From Candidatus Epulonipiscium sp. (GTDB lineage Bacteria > Bacillota > Clostridia > Lachnospirales > JAAYNZ01): a stretch of DNA of 55,120 nucleotides. The position numbers and the translations under genes were made by a program. Shown here in pieces: positions 1,914 to 49,843 of the stretch. A model generated the notes under the pieces. That model saw only the letters and a program-made list of their open reading frames with translations, was not told the origin of the DNA and did no database searches. Position 1 is the stretch's first letter. Each line of letters begins with the position of its first letter. Location: contig JAAYSE010000081.1 of assembly GCA_012524135.1 (NCBI GenBank), positions 1-55,120 on the forward strand. Direction: 5' to 3'.

Positions 1914-3974
1914 TTGATCAGTTTACAAGATTCGGTTACAAGTTTAAAAGGAATAGGAACTCAACGATTAAAACTTTTAGAACAAATACAAATATCTACC
2001 CTTGAAGATCTTATATACTATCTACCTAGAAACTATGAAGATTGGTCTCAAGTTACAAAAATCAAAGACATTATTATAGGTGAAAAACAAACTATTGAAG
2101 GTATAGTTAGCACAACACCTCAAAATATTCGAAAAGGAAAATTAATAATAACAAAATGTAAAATTGAAGATAGTACAGGATCAATATGGGCTGTATGGTA
2201 TGGACAACCGTATTTAAAGAATTATTTTAAACCCGGTGAGAGCTATGTTTTCACTGGGAAAATAAATCGATATTATGGATCTATACAATTAATTTCATCA
2301 GAATATGAAAAAATAGATATGAATGAAAAAAATAAAAATATAGGTATTTTACCTATATATACTCTTCCACAAAAATTATCTCAAAAATTATTTCGTAGTT
2401 GGATTCAACAAAGTTTTGAAAATGTAGGAACTAATCTTCAAGAATTTCTTCCTTTATGGATTCGTCAACAATATGAGTTAGCAGATATAGCGTATTCTAT
2501 TTATCATATCCATTTTCCAAAAGATAAAGAACATTTTTTAACAGCTCGGAAGCGATTAGTATTTGAAGAATTTTTTTTATTACAAATGGGATTATTACAG
2601 ATTAAACAAGGAATTGATAAAAAAACGAAAGGAATTCAGTATAAACCTAAAAAAGATGTGGAATACTTTATTAAAAGCCTACCTTATTCTTTGACTAGTG
2701 CACAAGAAAAAGTAGTAAAAGAAATTCAAAAGGATATGTTTTTACCTTATACAATGAATCGATTAGTACAAGGTGATGTAGGTTCAGGTAAAACAGTTGT
2801 AGCAGCTATAACTTTATTATTAGCTGTAAAAAATGGTTATCAAGGAAGTATGATGGCACCAACGGAGGTATTAGCAAGACAACATTATGAAACGCTTCGA
2901 ATGTTTTTAGAACCTTTTAATATTAAATGTGGTCTTTTGGTAGGATCTTTAACCAAAAAACAAAAGGAAAATATAAATGAAAAATTGAAAAATCATAGGA
3001 TTGATGTAGTGATAGGAACACATGCTTTAATTCAAGATTCTATTTCATTTGCTAATCTTGGTTTAGTAATTACTGATGAACAACATCGTTTTGGAGTAAG
3101 GCAAAGAATGACATTAACTCAAAAAGGAAAATCACCAGATGTTCTTGTGATGACTGCTACCCCTATTCCTAGGACATTAGCTCTTATTTTATATGGTGAT
3201 TTAGATATTTCTATTATTGATGAATTACCACCTGGGAGACAACAAATTAAAACGTATGCTGTACCTTCTTCGTATCGAAATAGAATTTATCATTTTATAA
3301 AAGAAGAAATTAATAAAGGAAGACAAATTTATATGATCTGTCCTATGGTAGAAGAATCGGAAACATTAGAATTACAATCTGTAATTGAATATACTAGTCA
3401 TTTACAAAATGAAATTTTTACTAATTATAAAATTGCTTATTTACATGGTAAAATGAAAGCAAAAGAAAAGCATGATATTATGGAACAGTTTTCTCAAGGT
3501 ATAATTCAAATTCTAGTTTCTACAACTGTCATAGAAGTAGGAGTCAATGTTCCTAATGCAACGATTATGGTTATTGAAAATGCAGAGCGTTTTGGTCTAT
3601 CTCAATTGCATCAATTACGTGGTCGTGTAGGACGAGGTAAATATCAATCTTATTGTATTTTAATTTCAGATGCTAAAAATAAAATAGCTTTAGAGCGAAT
3701 GAAAGTAATGACAGAAACTACAGACGGTTTTAAAATTTCAGAAATGGATTTGAAATTAAGAGGACCTGGTGATTTCTTTGGGACAAAACAACATGGATTG
3801 CCAGATTTAAAAATTGCAAATATTTATGAAGATATGGCTGTTTTAAAACAAGCTCAAGAAGCAGTTTTAACCTTACTACAAAAAGATCCTTTTTTACAAC
3901 ATGAAGAGCATTATTTTTTAAATCAAAAAATTAATGCTTTATTTCAAAATACAGATGAAGTTTTAGCATTATAA
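1914..3974 (+). CDS. recG: ATP-dependent DNA helicase RecG
   Basis: A 686-residue protein starting with TTG behind AAGGAG. The N-terminal wedge/OB domain (about 1-190) is followed by helicase motifs: Walker A GDVGSGKT, DEQHRFGVRQR (DExH box), MTATPIPRT (motif III), then the C-terminal helicase domain with QLHQLRGRVGRG. RecG remodels stalled replication forks and Holliday junctions. Length is normal for the family and no motif is missing. It follows the fakA terminator and has no obvious promoter of its own in the 60 bases between. Confidence 0.97.
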   Translation: MISLQDSVTSLKGIGTQRLKLLEQIQISTLEDLIYYLPRNYEDWSQVTKIKDIIIGEKQTIEGIVSTTPQNIRKGKLIITKCKIEDSTGSIWAVWYGQPYLKNYFKPGESYVFTGKINRYYGSIQLISSEYEKIDMNEKNKNIGILPIYTLPQKLSQKLFRSWIQQSFENVGTNLQEFLPLWIRQQYELADIAYSIYHIHFPKDKEHFLTARKRLVFEEFFLLQMGLLQIKQGIDKKTKGIQYKPKKDVEYFIKSLPYSLTSAQEKVVKEIQKDMFLPYTMNRLVQGDVGSGKTVVAAITLLLAVKNGYQGSMMAPTEVLARQHYETLRMFLEPFNIKCGLLVGSLTKKQKENINEKLKNHRIDVVIGTHALIQDSISFANLGLVITDEQHRFGVRQRMTLTQKGKSPDVLVMTATPIPRTLALILYGDLDISIIDELPPGRQQIKTYAVPSSYRNRIYHFIKEEINKGRQIYMICPMVEESETLELQSVIEYTSHLQNEIFTNYKIAYLHGKMKAKEKHDIMEQFSQGIIQILVSTTVIEVGVNVPNATIMVIENAERFGLSQLHQLRGRVGRGKYQSYCILISDAKNKIALERMKVMTETTDGFKISEMDLKLRGPGDFFGTKQHGLPDLKIANIYEDMAVLKQAQEAVLTLLQKDPFLQHEEHYFLNQKINALFQNTDEVLAL

Positions 3975-3990
3975 TTGCAATATTTCCCAT

Positions 3991-4019
3991 TCATAAAACT
4001 ATTTTATTTGTGCATAATA
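3991..4019 (+). promoter_or_regulatory. Candidate sigma-G promoter of the SASP gene
   Basis: CATAATA at 4013-4019 fits the sigma-G -10 consensus CATWHTA. TCATA lies 17 bases upstream and matches GHATR in four of five positions. The spacing and the ~45-nt leader suit an sspA-like gene expressed in the forespore. It is inferred from consensus only. Confidence 0.45.
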
Positions 4020-4070
4020 CTAATGCAACACATATTTATAATAGTTATATTTTAAAGGAGGTTTTTTCAA

Positions 4071-5621: not shown

Positions 5622-6128
5622 ATGGATAATGTATTAGAACTTTTAGATATACTTGAAGATCTTTTAGATGATAGTAGTACTATGCCCTTTACAAACAAAG
5701 TTATGATTGACAAAGAAGAATTTATTGATATTATTACAGATATTCGTTTAAAGTTACCTAATGAATTAAAACAGTCCAAGTGGGTAATGGAAGAACGAAC
5801 ACAAATTTTAATTAATGCACAAAAAGAAGCAGAAAATCATTTAAAAGAAGCAGAGACTAAATTAAATGAATTGGTTAATGAACATGAAATTACAAAAAAA
5901 GCTTACGAACAAGCTGAAGAAATTACAGAAACAGCGAAAGAACATTCAAGGGAAATGCGTCTTGGTGCGAGAGAATATGCAGATGAGATATTAGCTAATG
6001 TAGAAGATGCACTGGTTTCTTTAATGGAGCAAGTGAATCAACAATTCTCATCTTTTGAACAATATATGCAACAAACTATTGCCATTATACATCAAAACCG
6101 TCAAGAATTACGGGGAGATAATAAATAA
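5622..6128 (+). CDS. Coiled-coil protein of unknown function downstream of coaD
   Basis: A 168-residue acidic protein with GGGAGGGG as ribosome-binding site. Residues 60-125 are rich in E, K, A and Q and look like a long helix (KEAENHLKEAETKLNEL, EEITETAKEHSREMRLG), similar in texture to V-type ATPase subunit E stalks or DivIVA-like proteins. No enzymatic motif or membrane segment is visible. The N-terminus (MDNVLELLDILEDLLDD) is strongly acidic. Proteins of this type follow coaD in many Clostridia and are often labelled 'ATPase', which nothing here supports. Its last 28 bases overlap the convergent ylbJ gene. Confidence 0.75.
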   Translation: MDNVLELLDILEDLLDDSSTMPFTNKVMIDKEEFIDIITDIRLKLPNELKQSKWVMEERTQILINAQKEAENHLKEAETKLNELVNEHEITKKAYEQAEEITETAKEHSREMRLGAREYADEILANVEDALVSLMEQVNQQFSSFEQYMQQTIAIIHQNRQELRGDNK

Positions 6129-7279
6129 TAATAGAGCAATCCAAGTATTACTAATATAATACATAATACTACAAATTGAAAAGTAGAATGTATAAAAATT
6201 GGATACCCAACATTTTCTTGCTGTAAAATAGTAGATGGAACGGAAAAAGTAGAGTTAAGAATGTTTTTTCGTATTAAGGGAAATAAAAGAAAAGTGTATA
6301 TAATGGCTAATACAGATTGAATAAGTTTACTTATTATGTAAATAGATGTTTTTAATGAAGTCCCTTGTAAAATACTAGCGGTTTGTGCATGAACAGAAAA
6401 ACCACTCCATGCAATACATCCATTGATACAAATTAATTTTTGTAATATGGGTGCAGAAGTTGTACTGATGATTTGAATTCCATTAGTGATTTCGAGAATT
6501 GAAAATAAAAATGCTGTTTTTAGTTCTTTATGTAAAGGAATCCACTTATCAATTAAAGTAAAAAAAGAATTAAATATACTAGATATAGGCCCATGTTTTA
6601 AAAGTTCTATAATAACTGAAAATAAAATAATAAATCCACCAATTTGTAATAAGAGTTCCATAGCATAAGTTACACTTTTTTTTAGTGTTTCTCCTAAAGA
6701 TGGAAATCCAGTCTTTGTCTTATTGTTTTTAGTTGTTATAATTTTTTTTGCTTGATCTGAATTTTTATAGAAGCGAAAAATTAGACCAGTAGAAAAAGCT
6801 GATAAATACTGAATAATTAATAAATAAAATCCAATAGATGGCTGTTTTAACATTCCTACAGAGACAACTCCTAATATAAAAAGAGGGCCTGATTGATTGC
6901 ATACGCTTAATAAGCGTTGTCCTTCAATAGAAGTTAAATCTCCTTTTTTAACTAAATTAGCAGTAATAGTAGCTCCCATAGGATATCCTGACATCATACC
7001 CATAATCAATGCAAAGGCACCAACACCAGGGATTTTAAAAAGTGGTTTCATAATAGGTTCAAATAAATAACCAATCCATTGTACCAGTCCAAAGTCAATC
7101 ATAAATTGAGTTCCAATAAAAAATGGGAAAAGAGAAGGAAGTACTGTATTAAACCATAATAATAGTCCTTTTTGAGCAGCACTTATTACTATTTTTGCGT
7201 AAAGTAAAATATTTATTACAAATATAAGGATGAATATTTGTAAGACTCGATTTTTAAAATTTTGTTTATTCAAGAACAT
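6101..7279 (-). CDS. ylbJ: Sporulation integral membrane protein YlbJ
   Basis: A 392-residue polytopic membrane protein of the nucleoside-recognition (Gate) family with roughly eight to ten hydrophobic segments. The stretch MMSGYPMGATITANLVKKGD (about 114-133) and the WSGFSVHAQ segment near the C-terminal third are typical of YlbJ. In B. subtilis ylbJ is sigma-E controlled and needed for late sporulation. Here it lies 65 bases after tmcAL in the same direction. The ATG start has an AAAGGA site. Its 3' end overlaps the opposite coaD-linked gene by 28 bases. Confidence 0.88.
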   Translation of the reverse strand: MFLNKQNFKNRVLQIFILIFVINILLYAKIVISAAQKGLLLWFNTVLPSLFPFFIGTQFMIDFGLVQWIGYLFEPIMKPLFKIPGVGAFALIMGMMSGYPMGATITANLVKKGDLTSIEGQRLLSVCNQSGPLFILGVVSVGMLKQPSIGFYLLIIQYLSAFSTGLIFRFYKNSDQAKKIITTKNNKTKTGFPSLGETLKKSVTYAMELLLQIGGFIILFSVIIELLKHGPISSIFNSFFTLIDKWIPLHKELKTAFLFSILEITNGIQIISTTSAPILQKLICINGCIAWSGFSVHAQTASILQGTSLKTSIYIISKLIQSVLAIIYTFLLFPLIRKNILNSTFSVPSTILQQENVGYPIFIHSTFQFVVLCIILVILGLLYYYLLSPRNS

Positions 7280-31996: not shown

Positions 31997-33475
31997 ATGG
32001 AAGATTTTAATATTTATCATGATATTTCTACACGAACAAATGGAGATATTTATTTAGGAGTAGTAGGGCCTGTGCGTACTGGAAAGTCAACTTTCATTAA
32101 ACGTTTTATGGATTTATTAGTATTACCTAATATGGATAATACATATAGTCGTGAAAGAGCTAAAGATGAAATGCCTCAAAGTGCAGCTGGAAAAACAATT
32201 ATGACAACGGAACCTAAATTTGTACCCAATGAAGCTGTTTCTATTGCATTAGAGGATAATATTGAACTTAAAGTTAGAATGATAGACTGTGTTGGTTATA
32301 TGATTCCTGGAGCTACCGGACATCTAGAAGGTGAAAATCCACGTATGGTAAATACACCTTGGTACGATCATCAAATTCCTTTTATTGAGGCAGCTGAAAT
32401 TGGAACTAAAAAAGTCATTAATGAACATTCGACTATAGGCATTGTAGTAACCACAGATGGATCGATTACAGATATTGAAAGGGAAAGTTATATTGAAGCA
32501 GAAGAAAGAGTGGTAAATGAATTAAAAGAACTCAAAAAACCTTTTGTAATGTTACTGAATACCACTCGCCCTTATGATAACAAAACAATAGAATTAAAAG
32601 AAGAATTAAGCGAAAAGTATAAAATACCTGTTTTAGCCGTAAATTGTGCACAATTAAAAGTAGAAGATATTAATCAAATGATGGAAAATGTTTTATATGA
32701 ATTTCCAATTCAAGAAATCAATATTAATACACCTAGTTGGCTAGAAACATTAGAAAATGATCATTGGTTAAAAAATCAATTTATTATTGCAGTAAAAGAA
32801 GTAGTAAAACCTATATATAAATTACGCGAAGTAAAAGAAAATCTTTTAGAATTAGAAAAGAATGAATTTGTACAAAAAATTCATTTTGAAAGAATGAATT
32901 TAGGCGAAGGTATTATTAAAATGTCTGTTGCATTAGAGGAAAAATGGTTTTATCAAATATTAAGCGAAACTACGGATATAGAAATTAAAGGTGAATACCA
33001 ATTAATATCGTTAATGAAAAAACTAGCAAATATAAAAAAAGAATATGATAAAGTAGCCTATGCATTACAAGAAGTTCGACAAAAAGGATATGGTATAGTT
33101 ACACCTGTTCTTGAAGAATTAAGTTTAGAAGAGCCTGAAATTGTAAAACAAGGGAATAGATTTGGTGTTAAATTACGCGCAAGTGCTCCAAGTATTCACT
33201 TAATAAGAGCAGATATTCAAACAGAAGTTTCACCCATTGTAGGAACAGAAAAACAAAGTGAAGAATTAGTAAATTATTTAATGAGTGAATTTGAGACAGA
33301 TCCAAAAAAAATTTGGGAATCTAATATTTTTGGTAAATCTCTTCACGAACTTGTAAATGAAGGTTTACAAAATAAATTATACCGCATGCCAGAAGATGCA
33401 CAAATGAAATTACAAGAAACATTACAAAAAATAATCAATGAAGGTAATGGTGGTTTAATTTGTATTATTTTATAA
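31997..33475 (+). CDS. spoIVA: Stage IV sporulation protein A
   Basis: A 492-residue protein starting MEDFNIYHDISTRTNGDIYLG, with Walker A GPVRTGKST near residue 24, IDCVGYMIPGA and a conserved hydrophobic C-terminus (GNGGLICIIL). It is a TRAFAC-class ATPase that polymerises around the forespore as the base of the spore coat. AAGGAGG precedes the ATG. It is monocistronic, flanked by a sigma-E-like promoter and a terminator. Confidence 0.98.
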   Translation: MEDFNIYHDISTRTNGDIYLGVVGPVRTGKSTFIKRFMDLLVLPNMDNTYSRERAKDEMPQSAAGKTIMTTEPKFVPNEAVSIALEDNIELKVRMIDCVGYMIPGATGHLEGENPRMVNTPWYDHQIPFIEAAEIGTKKVINEHSTIGIVVTTDGSITDIERESYIEAEERVVNELKELKKPFVMLLNTTRPYDNKTIELKEELSEKYKIPVLAVNCAQLKVEDINQMMENVLYEFPIQEININTPSWLETLENDHWLKNQFIIAVKEVVKPIYKLREVKENLLELEKNEFVQKIHFERMNLGEGIIKMSVALEEKWFYQILSETTDIEIKGEYQLISLMKKLANIKKEYDKVAYALQEVRQKGYGIVTPVLEELSLEEPEIVKQGNRFGVKLRASAPSIHLIRADIQTEVSPIVGTEKQSEELVNYLMSEFETDPKKIWESNIFGKSLHELVNEGLQNKLYRMPEDAQMKLQETLQKIINEGNGGLICIIL

Positions 33476-46259: not shown

Positions 46260-47459
46260 TCATGAAGAAAAAGAATCTGGATATTTTTTAACCTGTATAA
46301 AATGTTGAATTTCTTTAGCAGTAAAACCGGCTTTTTTTAAGCAATGACTACATAAGTCTATATGATTAGATAATAAATAATAGTGTGCTGCTATTTCCCA
46401 CTTTTCTATTAGCTCTAAAAATTGTGCAGCTTTATAAGGATTTTCTATTTTTTTTATCCACTTTAAAGCTAGTTCTATTTTTTCTTGATTTATAAAATAA
46501 ATTACTGCTTTTTCAAAAAGCTGATATTTATCGTATAATTCTTCTAGTTTATTTATATTTTTTTGTTTCTCAAGATAATTGATAAAAATATGAGCCTGTT
46601 CATCTGTTTTAATCATTTTTTCAGCTGTTTCTACCATATGATGTTGAAGCAAAAGATGTATTGCTTCTTCGATTTTTTGTTCATGAACTAATAATTTAGT
46701 AGCTTCTTCGATATATCCTAATTCTTGATATAGGTGGATAGCTTTAGGAATATGAATATTTTCTAAATATTGAGCGGCTTGTAATAAATAACCTTCTTCT
46801 AATGCTTTATGAGCTAAATGCTCATAAATTCTTTGTACAATAATATCATTTTCTAAAATTTTTGCAGCGCTTATAGCTTTTTCCCAAATTTGCATACGAA
46901 TATAAAGTTTTAAAGCTTGTTCATAATTTTCTTTATCAAAAAAAGTATCTGCTTGTTTTTCAATAAATCGATATCCTCTTTTACGTTTTTCAGGATTATC
47001 TAATCGATCTATACAATCTAAAGCACGAAAGTGTTGTTCTAAATCCATATAACATTCTGCTGCTTTATCCCATAAATTTAATTTTTTATATAAAGAAGCA
47101 GCTTTTATTTTATCAAAATAAGAATACATATGAGCAGCTTTATTTAATAAGCCCTGTTTTTCACAAAAAGGAGCACCAAGCTCATATAACTCATACAATT
47201 CTACTGTATGAAGAGCTTTTTCACATTCTTTATTTTTAATATAGTAATAAAATACACTTTCATAATCTTTTAATATCTTACTTATTTCAATTACTTTAGA
47301 CCAATTTTCTAATTGAATGTATTTTTTTCGTGCTATTCTATAATAACCTTTGCGTTCTAAAAAAAGAGCTTGCTCTTTTATGGGTAAAGAAAAGTACTGT
47401 ACTTCTTTTTTTATCCATTTTTCGCATTTTTCAAACATATTCATGAAAAGATCCATCAT
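46260..47459 (-). CDS. Alpha-solenoid (TPR/clathrin-like repeat) protein
   Basis: A 399-residue protein made almost wholly of helical repeats of about 30-35 residues with the theme 'W-x-K-A-A-x-x-Y-x-x-L' (LNLWDKAAECYMDL, MQIWEKAISAAKIL, YQLFEKAVIYF, IEKWEIAAHYYLL). There is no signal peptide, membrane segment or enzymatic domain, so a cytosolic scaffold is likely. The repeat texture recalls TPR and eukaryotic trafficking solenoids; the family is not identified. AGGTGATG lies before the double ATG. It is the only minus-strand gene between 8.6 kb and the window end and has its own promoter. Confidence 0.8.
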   Translation of the reverse strand: MMDLFMNMFEKCEKWIKKEVQYFSLPIKEQALFLERKGYYRIARKKYIQLENWSKVIEISKILKDYESVFYYYIKNKECEKALHTVELYELYELGAPFCEKQGLLNKAAHMYSYFDKIKAASLYKKLNLWDKAAECYMDLEQHFRALDCIDRLDNPEKRKRGYRFIEKQADTFFDKENYEQALKLYIRMQIWEKAISAAKILENDIIVQRIYEHLAHKALEEGYLLQAAQYLENIHIPKAIHLYQELGYIEEATKLLVHEQKIEEAIHLLLQHHMVETAEKMIKTDEQAHIFINYLEKQKNINKLEELYDKYQLFEKAVIYFINQEKIELALKWIKKIENPYKAAQFLELIEKWEIAAHYYLLSNHIDLCSHCLKKAGFTAKEIQHFIQVKKYPDSFSS

Positions 47460-47506: not shown

Positions 47507-47628
47507 TAAACAAAAATAGATTAATTTTCTTATATCTTGTATAATAGAAAATTATATATGTGTTATTATTTTAAAAGAGACCTCTTTAGTTATAAGATAA
47601 AAAATTGCAAAAAAGTGAGGCGATCTTT

Positions 47629-48171
47629 ATGGGTTATTGGAATACAAGAGGACTACGTGGTAGTACATTAGAAGAATTAATTAATCTAACAAATGAATTA
47701 TATTATTCAAAAAAATTAGCTCTTGTTCAAAAAATACCTACACCAATTAAGCCAATTAAAATCAATAAAGAAAATCGTACTATTACACTTGCTTATTTTG
47801 AACAAAAAAGTACGGTAGATTATATAGGAGTAGTACAGGGAATTCCTATCTGCTTTGATGCTAAGGAAACAAGTCAAAAATATTTGCCACTTCAAAATAT
47901 TCATGATCATCAAATACAGTTTATGTCTTGTTTTGAAGAACAAGAAGGAGTTGCTTTTTTACTTGTTTATTTTTCTTATTATAATAAATATTTTTTTCTT
48001 CCTTTTTCCATATTAAAAAATTGGTGGAATCAGGCACAAAATGGTGGAAGAAAATCTATTCCTTATAGAGTTTTTCCTGAAAAATTTTGTATTGAAAATA
48101 AAAATGGAGCTTATGTTCATTATTTAGAAGCTTTAAATACATATTTACTATCTAAAACTAGAAATAGATAG
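47629..48171 (+). CDS. recU: Holliday junction resolvase RecU
   Basis: A 180-residue protein from ATG 47629 (GTGAGG upstream; the track's TTG at 47605 has no site). NTRGLRGSTLEELINLTNELY, QKIPTPIKPI and STVDYIGVVQGIPICFDAKET supply the PD-(D/E)XK catalytic residues (Asp about 64, Asp about 77, Lys about 79), then HDHQIQFM and a C-terminal YRVFP. RecU cleaves Holliday junctions in Firmicutes and is usually next to a class A penicillin-binding protein gene, which is missing here. Confidence 0.93.
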   Translation: MGYWNTRGLRGSTLEELINLTNELYYSKKLALVQKIPTPIKPIKINKENRTITLAYFEQKSTVDYIGVVQGIPICFDAKETSQKYLPLQNIHDHQIQFMSCFEEQEGVAFLLVYFSYYNKYFFLPFSILKNWWNQAQNGGRKSIPYRVFPEKFCIENKNGAYVHYLEALNTYLLSKTRNR

Positions 48172-48243
48172 TATAAAAATGCAAATAATGTATAAAACAA
48201 ATAAAAAATGTTGATACTCCTAGATGGTAAAAGGAGTGTTTCT

Positions 48244-49542
48244 ATGAAAAAAAAGTATTGGTCTATTATTTATGGAAGTATTATTATCATATTTTTTATT
48301 TGTTGTTTTATAAATCAATCTCATTCTAGTGTCTCTACTAATCCACATGATAAACAAACTATATCTTCAGAACAATTTTTAATAGAAATTCCTTATCAAT
48401 TATGGATAGAAGAAAATAATTATTGTTTGAATCTTTATGAACCAATAGAAGGATGTTACATAGGCGCTTATATTTTAGCTAATAAGTATGTTGATTTTGA
48501 TATTCAAGAATTTGAAAAGAAAGTTCAAAAACCCCATAGTACTTATATGTATAATCTTAAATTAGGAGAACCTTTTCCTTTGGACTGGGTCTTAGATTGT
48601 ACCAGTCAAATGAAAGTACCACATATTATTATTCATCCTCCTTCTCATTTATTTCCTTATCAAGAACATTTATTAGAACAAACATCTAAGGAATTTGGAG
48701 AATTTTTTATCCCTATGTTTGTACAATTATATCCTAATTTTACAGATTATATGGGTAGTCCTAGTGAATACAAAAATTTTTTTCAAACAGCTTCTCGTAT
48801 TTTTAAAAAAAATGCTCCCAATGTTAGTATAGTTTGGAGTTTACCTGTTGAAAACCTTTATCATAGTTTTTTATATGATCCTGGTGACGTATCTATGGAC
48901 TGGATTGGGATTCATGTGAATATTTCTACTAAAGAACAAGAAAAAAATAATAATAAAGATATTTTACAATCTATATATGATTTTTATATTACTTATCAAC
49001 ATAGAAAACCTTTAATGATTTCTCAATTAGAAATTGCTCACTATTCAACTAAAAATCATAGTTACTATATTAATGAGACCAAAACAATATTGAAAGAAAT
49101 TTATGATAAAATTAAAACTATGTATCCAAGAATTAAAGCTATTCAGTATATGAATACTTATCAAAAAGAAATAAATTCCTTAAATCATACCTATGAAAAC
49201 TTTAGTATAACAGAACAACCTGAAATATTAGATACGTATAAAAATCTGATTGCTTCTTCTCATTATTTAGAAAATATAGATGTACAATCTAATGGAGAAG
49301 TTTACCCTCAATGGATTTTACTTGATACTCCTATATATTATTTGAATGAGAAACTTTATGTATCAGATTATTTTTTTGCTCAACCCTATATACAAACAAA
49401 GTTTAATAATTTAGTAAAAAAACCTATCATTATAAAAAATCAAAAATTATATTCACTAGAAAGTATTTGTAAGGATATTGGATATAAACTAAAAATGAAT
49501 CAAAGAAAAAACTGTATTTATTTAACATTCGATAGGAGTTAG
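48244..49542 (+). CDS. Exported GH26-like protein with C-terminal stalk (copper amine oxidase N-like) domain
   Basis: A 432-residue protein from ATG 48244 behind AAGGAGTG (the track's TTG is upstream of that site). A hydrophobic N-terminal segment (about 5-24) is a signal anchor or signal peptide. Residues ~55-310 resemble a GH26 TIM barrel ([45 protein letters not shown]). The usual acid/base HEMN-type motif and the nucleophile Glu (SEFG) appear replaced (VQLYPN; SQLE), so catalysis is doubtful. The last ~80 residues fit the 'copper amine oxidase N-terminal'/stalk domain common on Clostridia surface proteins. Alignment is from memory. Confidence 0.65.
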
Positions 49543-49547
49543 ACAAA

Positions 49548-49843
49548 ATGTTATATGTTTATGATGAACAATGGCCTTGGGAATTAATACAATGGTATTT
49601 AAAAAACAAACGTGATTTACCTTGGAGAAATAAAAAAGATCCGTATAGTATTTGGATTTCAGAAATTATGTTACAACAAACTATTGGAAAATGAAAGTGT
49701 ATATTTGTGAATTATTATCACAAGATATTTTAGAAACAATGCAATGGGTTTCTTTTAAAATGATAAATAATCTAACCATTCCTACCGCATATCAAAATAT
49801 TAAAAAAAATATTTTTAATAATTCATATTATCAACAAAAATAA
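49548..49843 (+). pseudogene. mutY: MutY adenine glycosylase remnant with internal deletion and frameshift
   Basis: 49548-49694 encodes 48 residues ending in [28 protein letters not shown], the unmistakable MutY N-terminus. One frame over, from about 49680 to 49843, the text [10 protein letters not shown] ... TIPTAYQNI resembles the MutY C-terminal (NUDIX-like) end. The whole helix-hairpin-helix, catalytic Asp and 4Fe-4S cluster region (about 200-250 residues) is gone. The junction lies within CAAACTATTGG (49677-49687). It starts six bases after the GH26-like gene with TAGGAG upstream and is followed by a terminator. Family knowledge: MutY removes A opposite 8-oxoG. Confidence 0.85.

Follow-up and report, generated by a model that had tools for sequence, protein, structure and literature searches.

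A GH26-type protein family that has lost both catalytic glutamates, encoded beside recU and probably acting in the forespore in one order of spore-forming bacteria

A family of proteins with the barrel of glycoside hydrolase family 26 (GH26), almost certainly devoid of catalytic activity, is conserved in a single order of spore-formers from the gut and the environment, and a role for it in the forespore appears likely. The family was analysed starting from a 55,120-nucleotide window, namely contig JAAYSE010000081.1 (positions 1 to 55,120, forward strand) of Candidatus Epulonipiscium sp. (assembly GCA_012524135.1), in which one gene, here called the psi gene, encodes the pseudo-GH26 protein (Table 1). 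Its start was placed at the ATG at 48244, which has an AAGGAG ribosome site; an upstream ATG at 48208 is less likely. Literature searches combining GH26 with the forespore, and recU with GH26, returned no description of such a family, which thus appears to be new as far as the literature searched is concerned. Taking all evidence together, we lean towards a forespore-specific, membrane-anchored pseudoenzyme that would face the intermembrane space and bind a glycan there.

Table 1. Features in and around the psi gene of the 55,120-nucleotide window
Feature	Position	Strand	Basis
recU (Holliday junction resolvase), directly upstream of the psi gene	47605..48171	+	PF03838, E 2.6e-66
Sigma-F-like promoter: -35 GTATA (48190-48194), 15-base spacer, -10 GTTGATACT (48210-48218)	48190..48218	+	Matrix score
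Ribosome-binding site AAAAGGAGTG	48230..48239	+	Sequence
Pseudo-GH26 (psi) gene, 432 aa	48244..49542	+	ORF call, AlphaFold2 model, Foldseek
N-terminal hydrophobic segment, residues 4-24	48253..48315	+	Model, lipobox survey
GH26-type (beta/alpha)8 barrel, about residues 52-340	48397..49263	+	AlphaFold2 model, Foldseek
Former acid/base segment FVQLYPNFT, residues 159-167	48718..48744	+	Alignment with catalytic relatives
Former nucleophile position, Q261	49024..49026	+	Alignment with catalytic relatives
C-terminal domain, residues 345-432, remotely Cu_amine_oxidN1-like	49276..49539	+	Pfam and profile comparison

The initial annotation had proposed a GH26-like barrel from a few matching segments. 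The window protein on its own gave no match to the Pfam GH26 profile (PF02156), and none in a phmmer search against PDB, but 18 of 25 aligned orthologues matched PF02156 at E <= 1 (best 2.8e-7), so that the profile check failed for the single sequence and succeeded for its family. The family profile matches GH26 enzymes in PDB, including AlXyn26A (7xjr, E 3.9e-11) and CtLic26A (2bv9, E 1.1e-9). An AlphaFold2 model built with 39 aligned sequences (mean pLDDT 89.4, pTM 0.85) has eight strands alternating with helices, after which comes a small C-terminal domain; the top Foldseek matches of this confident model are GH26 enzymes, and its best PDB match is CtLic26A (2bv9/2cip; E 1e-13, TM 0.70-0.73 by target length). 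Structure prediction thus returned the proposed fold and no different one. Because the orthologue Pfam matches, the PDB profile matches, the AlphaFold2 model and the Foldseek ranking agree, the assignment of a GH26-type barrel, although predicted, is solid.

The absence of both catalytic glutamates, also claimed earlier, was examined against a reference set of 31 catalytic relatives from Paenibacillus, Clostridia, Armatimonadota and others. When a profile of 18 of these was aligned with CtLic26A, RFASEMNGxW fell on RPLHEANGDW and KPIxISEYG on KPIIIAEFA of the latter, and the AlXyn26A mutant E243A in the PDB profile match marks the same nucleophile position. The acid/base and nucleophile glutamates are both invariant in all 31 catalytic relatives. 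In the window protein they align with N165, at the end of strand 4, and Q261, at the end of strand 7; the readings VQLYPN and SQLE given for these places in the initial annotation are exact. Where the catalytic relatives have F-L-R-F-A-S-E-M-N-G-x-W, the SEMNG-W loop has become a shorter YPN segment that lacks two positions of the loop; Arg, Met, Asn, Gly and Trp around the former glutamate have gone as well. The loss is common to the whole clade: none of the 44 aligned orthologues has both glutamates, with E at 165 in four and E at 261 in three, never together.

An active glycosidase might still operate with other carboxylates, such as E263 of the SQLE segment, two residues past the nucleophile slot, or the E261 kept in the three orthologues just mentioned. 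E263, however, is peculiar to the window species and is replaced by A or G in 42 of the 44 aligned members; the residues that surrounded the acid/base have been lost; and no new conserved acid pair has appeared in the 44. We therefore regard an active enzyme as very improbable and the pseudo-GH26 protein, judged from these alignments, as catalytically inactive with near certainty; the earlier reading as a pseudo-glycosidase stands, given the GH26 fold and the clade-wide loss. Certain residues are conserved only in the inactive family, namely P164 (95%), Y/F163, P126 (98%), Q252 (89%), S265 (93%) and Y274 (95%) among the 44 aligned members, which suggests that a different function has been retained.

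The C-terminal domain had been likened to the copper amine oxidase N-like stalk. This likeness survives only as a distant one at the level of profiles, since Cu_amine_oxidN1 (PF07833) scores below the Pfam cut-off in the window protein (12.3 bits versus 24.2, E=0.16) and also in the sister species (E 0.027), and the cut-off is just reached by a short catalytic relative, L040 (3.3e-5). The C-terminal profiles of the inactive family and of the short catalytic relatives align with an hhalign probability of 92 (E 7e-7). The domain is therefore homologous in both, and the ancestor of the family was probably a complete two-domain enzyme. A lipobox is present in 34 of the 44 aligned inactive members versus 2 of the 31 catalytic relatives. 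Most orthologues are thus predicted lipoproteins; in the window genus (window species and sister) the lipobox cysteine is absent and the hydrophobic segment is kept, leaving the window copy with a bare hydrophobic anchor.

A profile search of 196 genomes sampled from the same order matched 112, about 104 of them with the short inactive type and the remainder with longer proteins of the catalytic type. A scan of genome contigs with a single-sequence query found no relatives; an alignment query found them. The inactive family was not seen in the other orders of the class among 391 genomes sampled from it: beyond the order, matches were weak, and almost every one was a longer frame, mostly of 500-1000 aa and of the putative catalytic kind. 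In a quick tree from which the catalytic columns had been removed, a single branch with 100% SH-aLRT separated inactive from catalytic proteins. An Epulopiscium bin (L105) also carries the gene, in keeping with the order being probably Lachnospirales.

Very diverged forms of 269-367 aa, with most barrel motifs eroded, lie directly behind recU in L198, L200, L202, L205, L207, L208 and L209. In L057 (5986-7256) and in L015 (1197-2492; the same as L032) the gene is in two frames, and recent decay or an assembly error is possible there.

Split frames of this sort, the erosion of barrel motifs in families f11 and f17, and a broken mutY next door to the window copy are what would be expected if psi were a decaying gene with no function left. 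The persistence of an open frame in about 100 genomes, the family-specific conserved residues and the single branch separating the family argue otherwise, and we hold decay to be highly unlikely.

Most psi copies directly follow recU on the same strand (at least 66 of 104 by coordinates, and more among the fetched loci). Copies away from recU are divergent from spoIIP in family f17 and stand directly before dnaA in some f5 genomes (L178, L181, L182 and L188); prkA-yhbH-spoVR comes just after the recU-linked copy of family f2. Lineages without the gene often have hisZ directly after recU. No conserved downstream partner was found among the family loci, and so no operon partner can be named. Beside the window copy is a mutY remnant (49549-49843) in which about 48 N-terminal codons and a C-terminal part survive; the corresponding place in the sister genome holds an intact mutY of 350 aa (L002:440-1492, minus strand). 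A TPR-like protein (46260-47459, minus strand) is found beside recU in related families too (cluster C4).

Upstream regions were then considered for sigma-F, whose published consensus is GTATA / GGNAANAMTR (PMC3416734); C. difficile also has a conserved G ahead of the -10 box (PMC3789822). In these genomes the sporulation genes spoIIR and gpr carry the sigma-F consensus. A two-box matrix was trained on 30 spoIIR/gpr upstream sites only, and its motif agrees with both published descriptions. It was scored on the 102 bases before each start, with 545 other genes of the same loci as controls (99th percentile, 11.0). Scores above this percentile were obtained for 28 of 68 psi genes versus 6 of 545 controls (p 4.5e-24, a value inflated by kinship within families), and in 26 of the 28 the site begins 44-66 bases ahead of the start codon. 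The sites come from 8 of 15 psi families, and are therefore not a single inherited copy. Forty of the 68 copies lack a site above the threshold, including those of families f16 and f7 and most of f19, f5 and f11. The strict sigma-F pattern occurs in 5 of 73 psi genes versus 0 of 545 controls, and in 11 of 24 spoIIR genes. An earlier pattern scan with unrefined start codons had found few sites, the signal appearing after start refinement and with the independently trained matrix; since counting GTATA alone gives only a weak enrichment (p 0.04), the case for a promoter rests on the two-box matrix. The window promoter scores 13.5 bits, above the control percentile, and has one mismatch, in the -10, to the strict pattern after PMC3416734. 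These statistics give good grounds to infer that the psi gene is transcribed by sigma-F at an early stage of sporulation in the forespore, from a promoter of its own located where recU ends.

In Bacillus, recU is paired with ponA. The recU synteny over many families, strong as it is and joined by the relocated f5 copies that adjoin dnaA, resembles this pairing and would suit a cell-wall factor with a housekeeping role, linked to RecU and to DNA replication or segregation. Yet the forespore-type promoter belongs to psi itself, the same matrix finding a sigma-F-like site in 0 of 49 recU upstream regions; psi has left recU in several lineages, and recU-carrying lineages without psi exist. Coupling to RecU is thus quite improbable.

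The window contains spoIVA (31997-33475), and the organism is therefore a predicted spore-former; its genome also has spoIIR and gpr. Across the order, spoIVA is present in 96 of the 104 psi carriers, the other eight genomes being 68-94% complete, and no carrier that is at least 95% complete lacks it. The association gives a Fisher p of 3e-10, computed ignoring phylogeny and owing much to a few families. In the sample from the order, 49 genomes from several spore-forming lineages have spoIVA and no psi gene, so the gene is not essential to sporulation in general.

Such an association could reflect lineage inertia, and the lipoprotein form, the GH26 ancestry and the many members without a sigma-F-like site would equally fit a vegetative cell-surface lipoprotein, derived from GH26, that binds glycans for polysaccharide capture and has no tie to sporulation. 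Against this are the genes' own sigma-F-like promoters in eight families, the presence of spoIVA in every carrier of at least 95% completeness, and a neighbourhood of recU, spoIIP, prkA-yhbH-spoVR or dnaA, not of genes for transport or carbohydrate use. A capture lipoprotein is accordingly unlikely, while some vegetative role for the psi gene is possible given its adjacency to recU.

The surface named in the initial annotation, that of cell or spore, can be narrowed by the promoter and the co-occurrence with spoIVA to the forespore, most likely the outer face of its membrane, and away from the coat of the mature spore. In the forespore reading that we favour, sigma-F would switch on the psi gene inside the forming spore, as the sequence statistics suggest. 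The protein, to judge by its signal sequences, would be exported across the forespore membrane, stay anchored there and face the gap that separates the inner from the outer forespore membrane. By analogy with SpoIIQ, the old substrate cleft may then bind a glycan, nascent peptidoglycan strands being the likeliest, so that the bound protein could serve as a tether or scaffold for the engulfment, germ-cell wall or cortex machinery. The intermembrane location and the tethering role are put forward cautiously, and glycan binding itself is a reasonable guess that may well prove wrong. A broader idea, equally tentative, is that the order has its own sigma-F-controlled forespore pseudo-glycosidases, an ancient GH26 enzyme having become a glycan-reading tether that might replace or supplement SpoIIQ-type engulfment and cortex factors in Lachnospirales-like bacteria, among them Epulopiscium-like organisms that reproduce by sporulation.

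Sporulation genes beyond Bacillus and C. difficile are poorly known, although many spore-formers of the gut belong to this order. If real, a conserved pseudoenzyme family with a forespore promoter would add a new candidate to the sporulation factors; its promoter and synteny make its role directly testable in a culturable member. It also illustrates clearly how an enzyme fold can be put to new use once catalysis is lost, and automatic 'beta-mannanase / GH26' labels on psi genes would be wrong.

Among GH26 enzymes, CtLic26A (2bv9/2cip) and AlXyn26A (7xjr) have in common with the pseudo-GH26 protein the barrel, the YPGD-xx-VDW and KP-x-IS motifs and the strand order. The pseudo-GH26 protein differs from them in lacking both glutamates together with the Arg, Met, Asn and Trp around them, in its predicted lipid or membrane anchor, and in its occurrence in spore-formers behind a sigma-F-like promoter. 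Its nearest active-looking relatives are two-domain proteins of 435-490 aa from Paenibacillus and Clostridia (L040, L043, L044, L049 and L055), which belong to the same barrel subgroup and have a homologous C-terminal domain, but keep both glutamates and are not beside recU. In L049, two catalytic GH26-like genes (2649-4031 and 5884-7191) flank a gene of 636 aa, which also adjoins the catalytic gene in L048 and L056. In Paenibacillus, genes next to the catalytic relatives offered no hint of what substrate these act on.

A functional parallel may be drawn, by analogy, with SpoIIQ of B. subtilis, a forespore membrane protein whose LytM domain is without a critical metal-binding histidine and which serves as a binding partner in the intermembrane space (PMC4982068). 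SpoIIQ has a LytM fold and the pseudo-GH26 protein a GH26 fold, and the two are not homologous. In Clostridioides difficile, GerS is described as a spore lipoprotein and CspC as a spore pseudoprotease, both acting by binding (PMC8496864, PMC6636752). The pseudo-GH26 family would resemble the one as spore lipoproteins and the other as spore pseudoenzymes, the folds and lineages being different.
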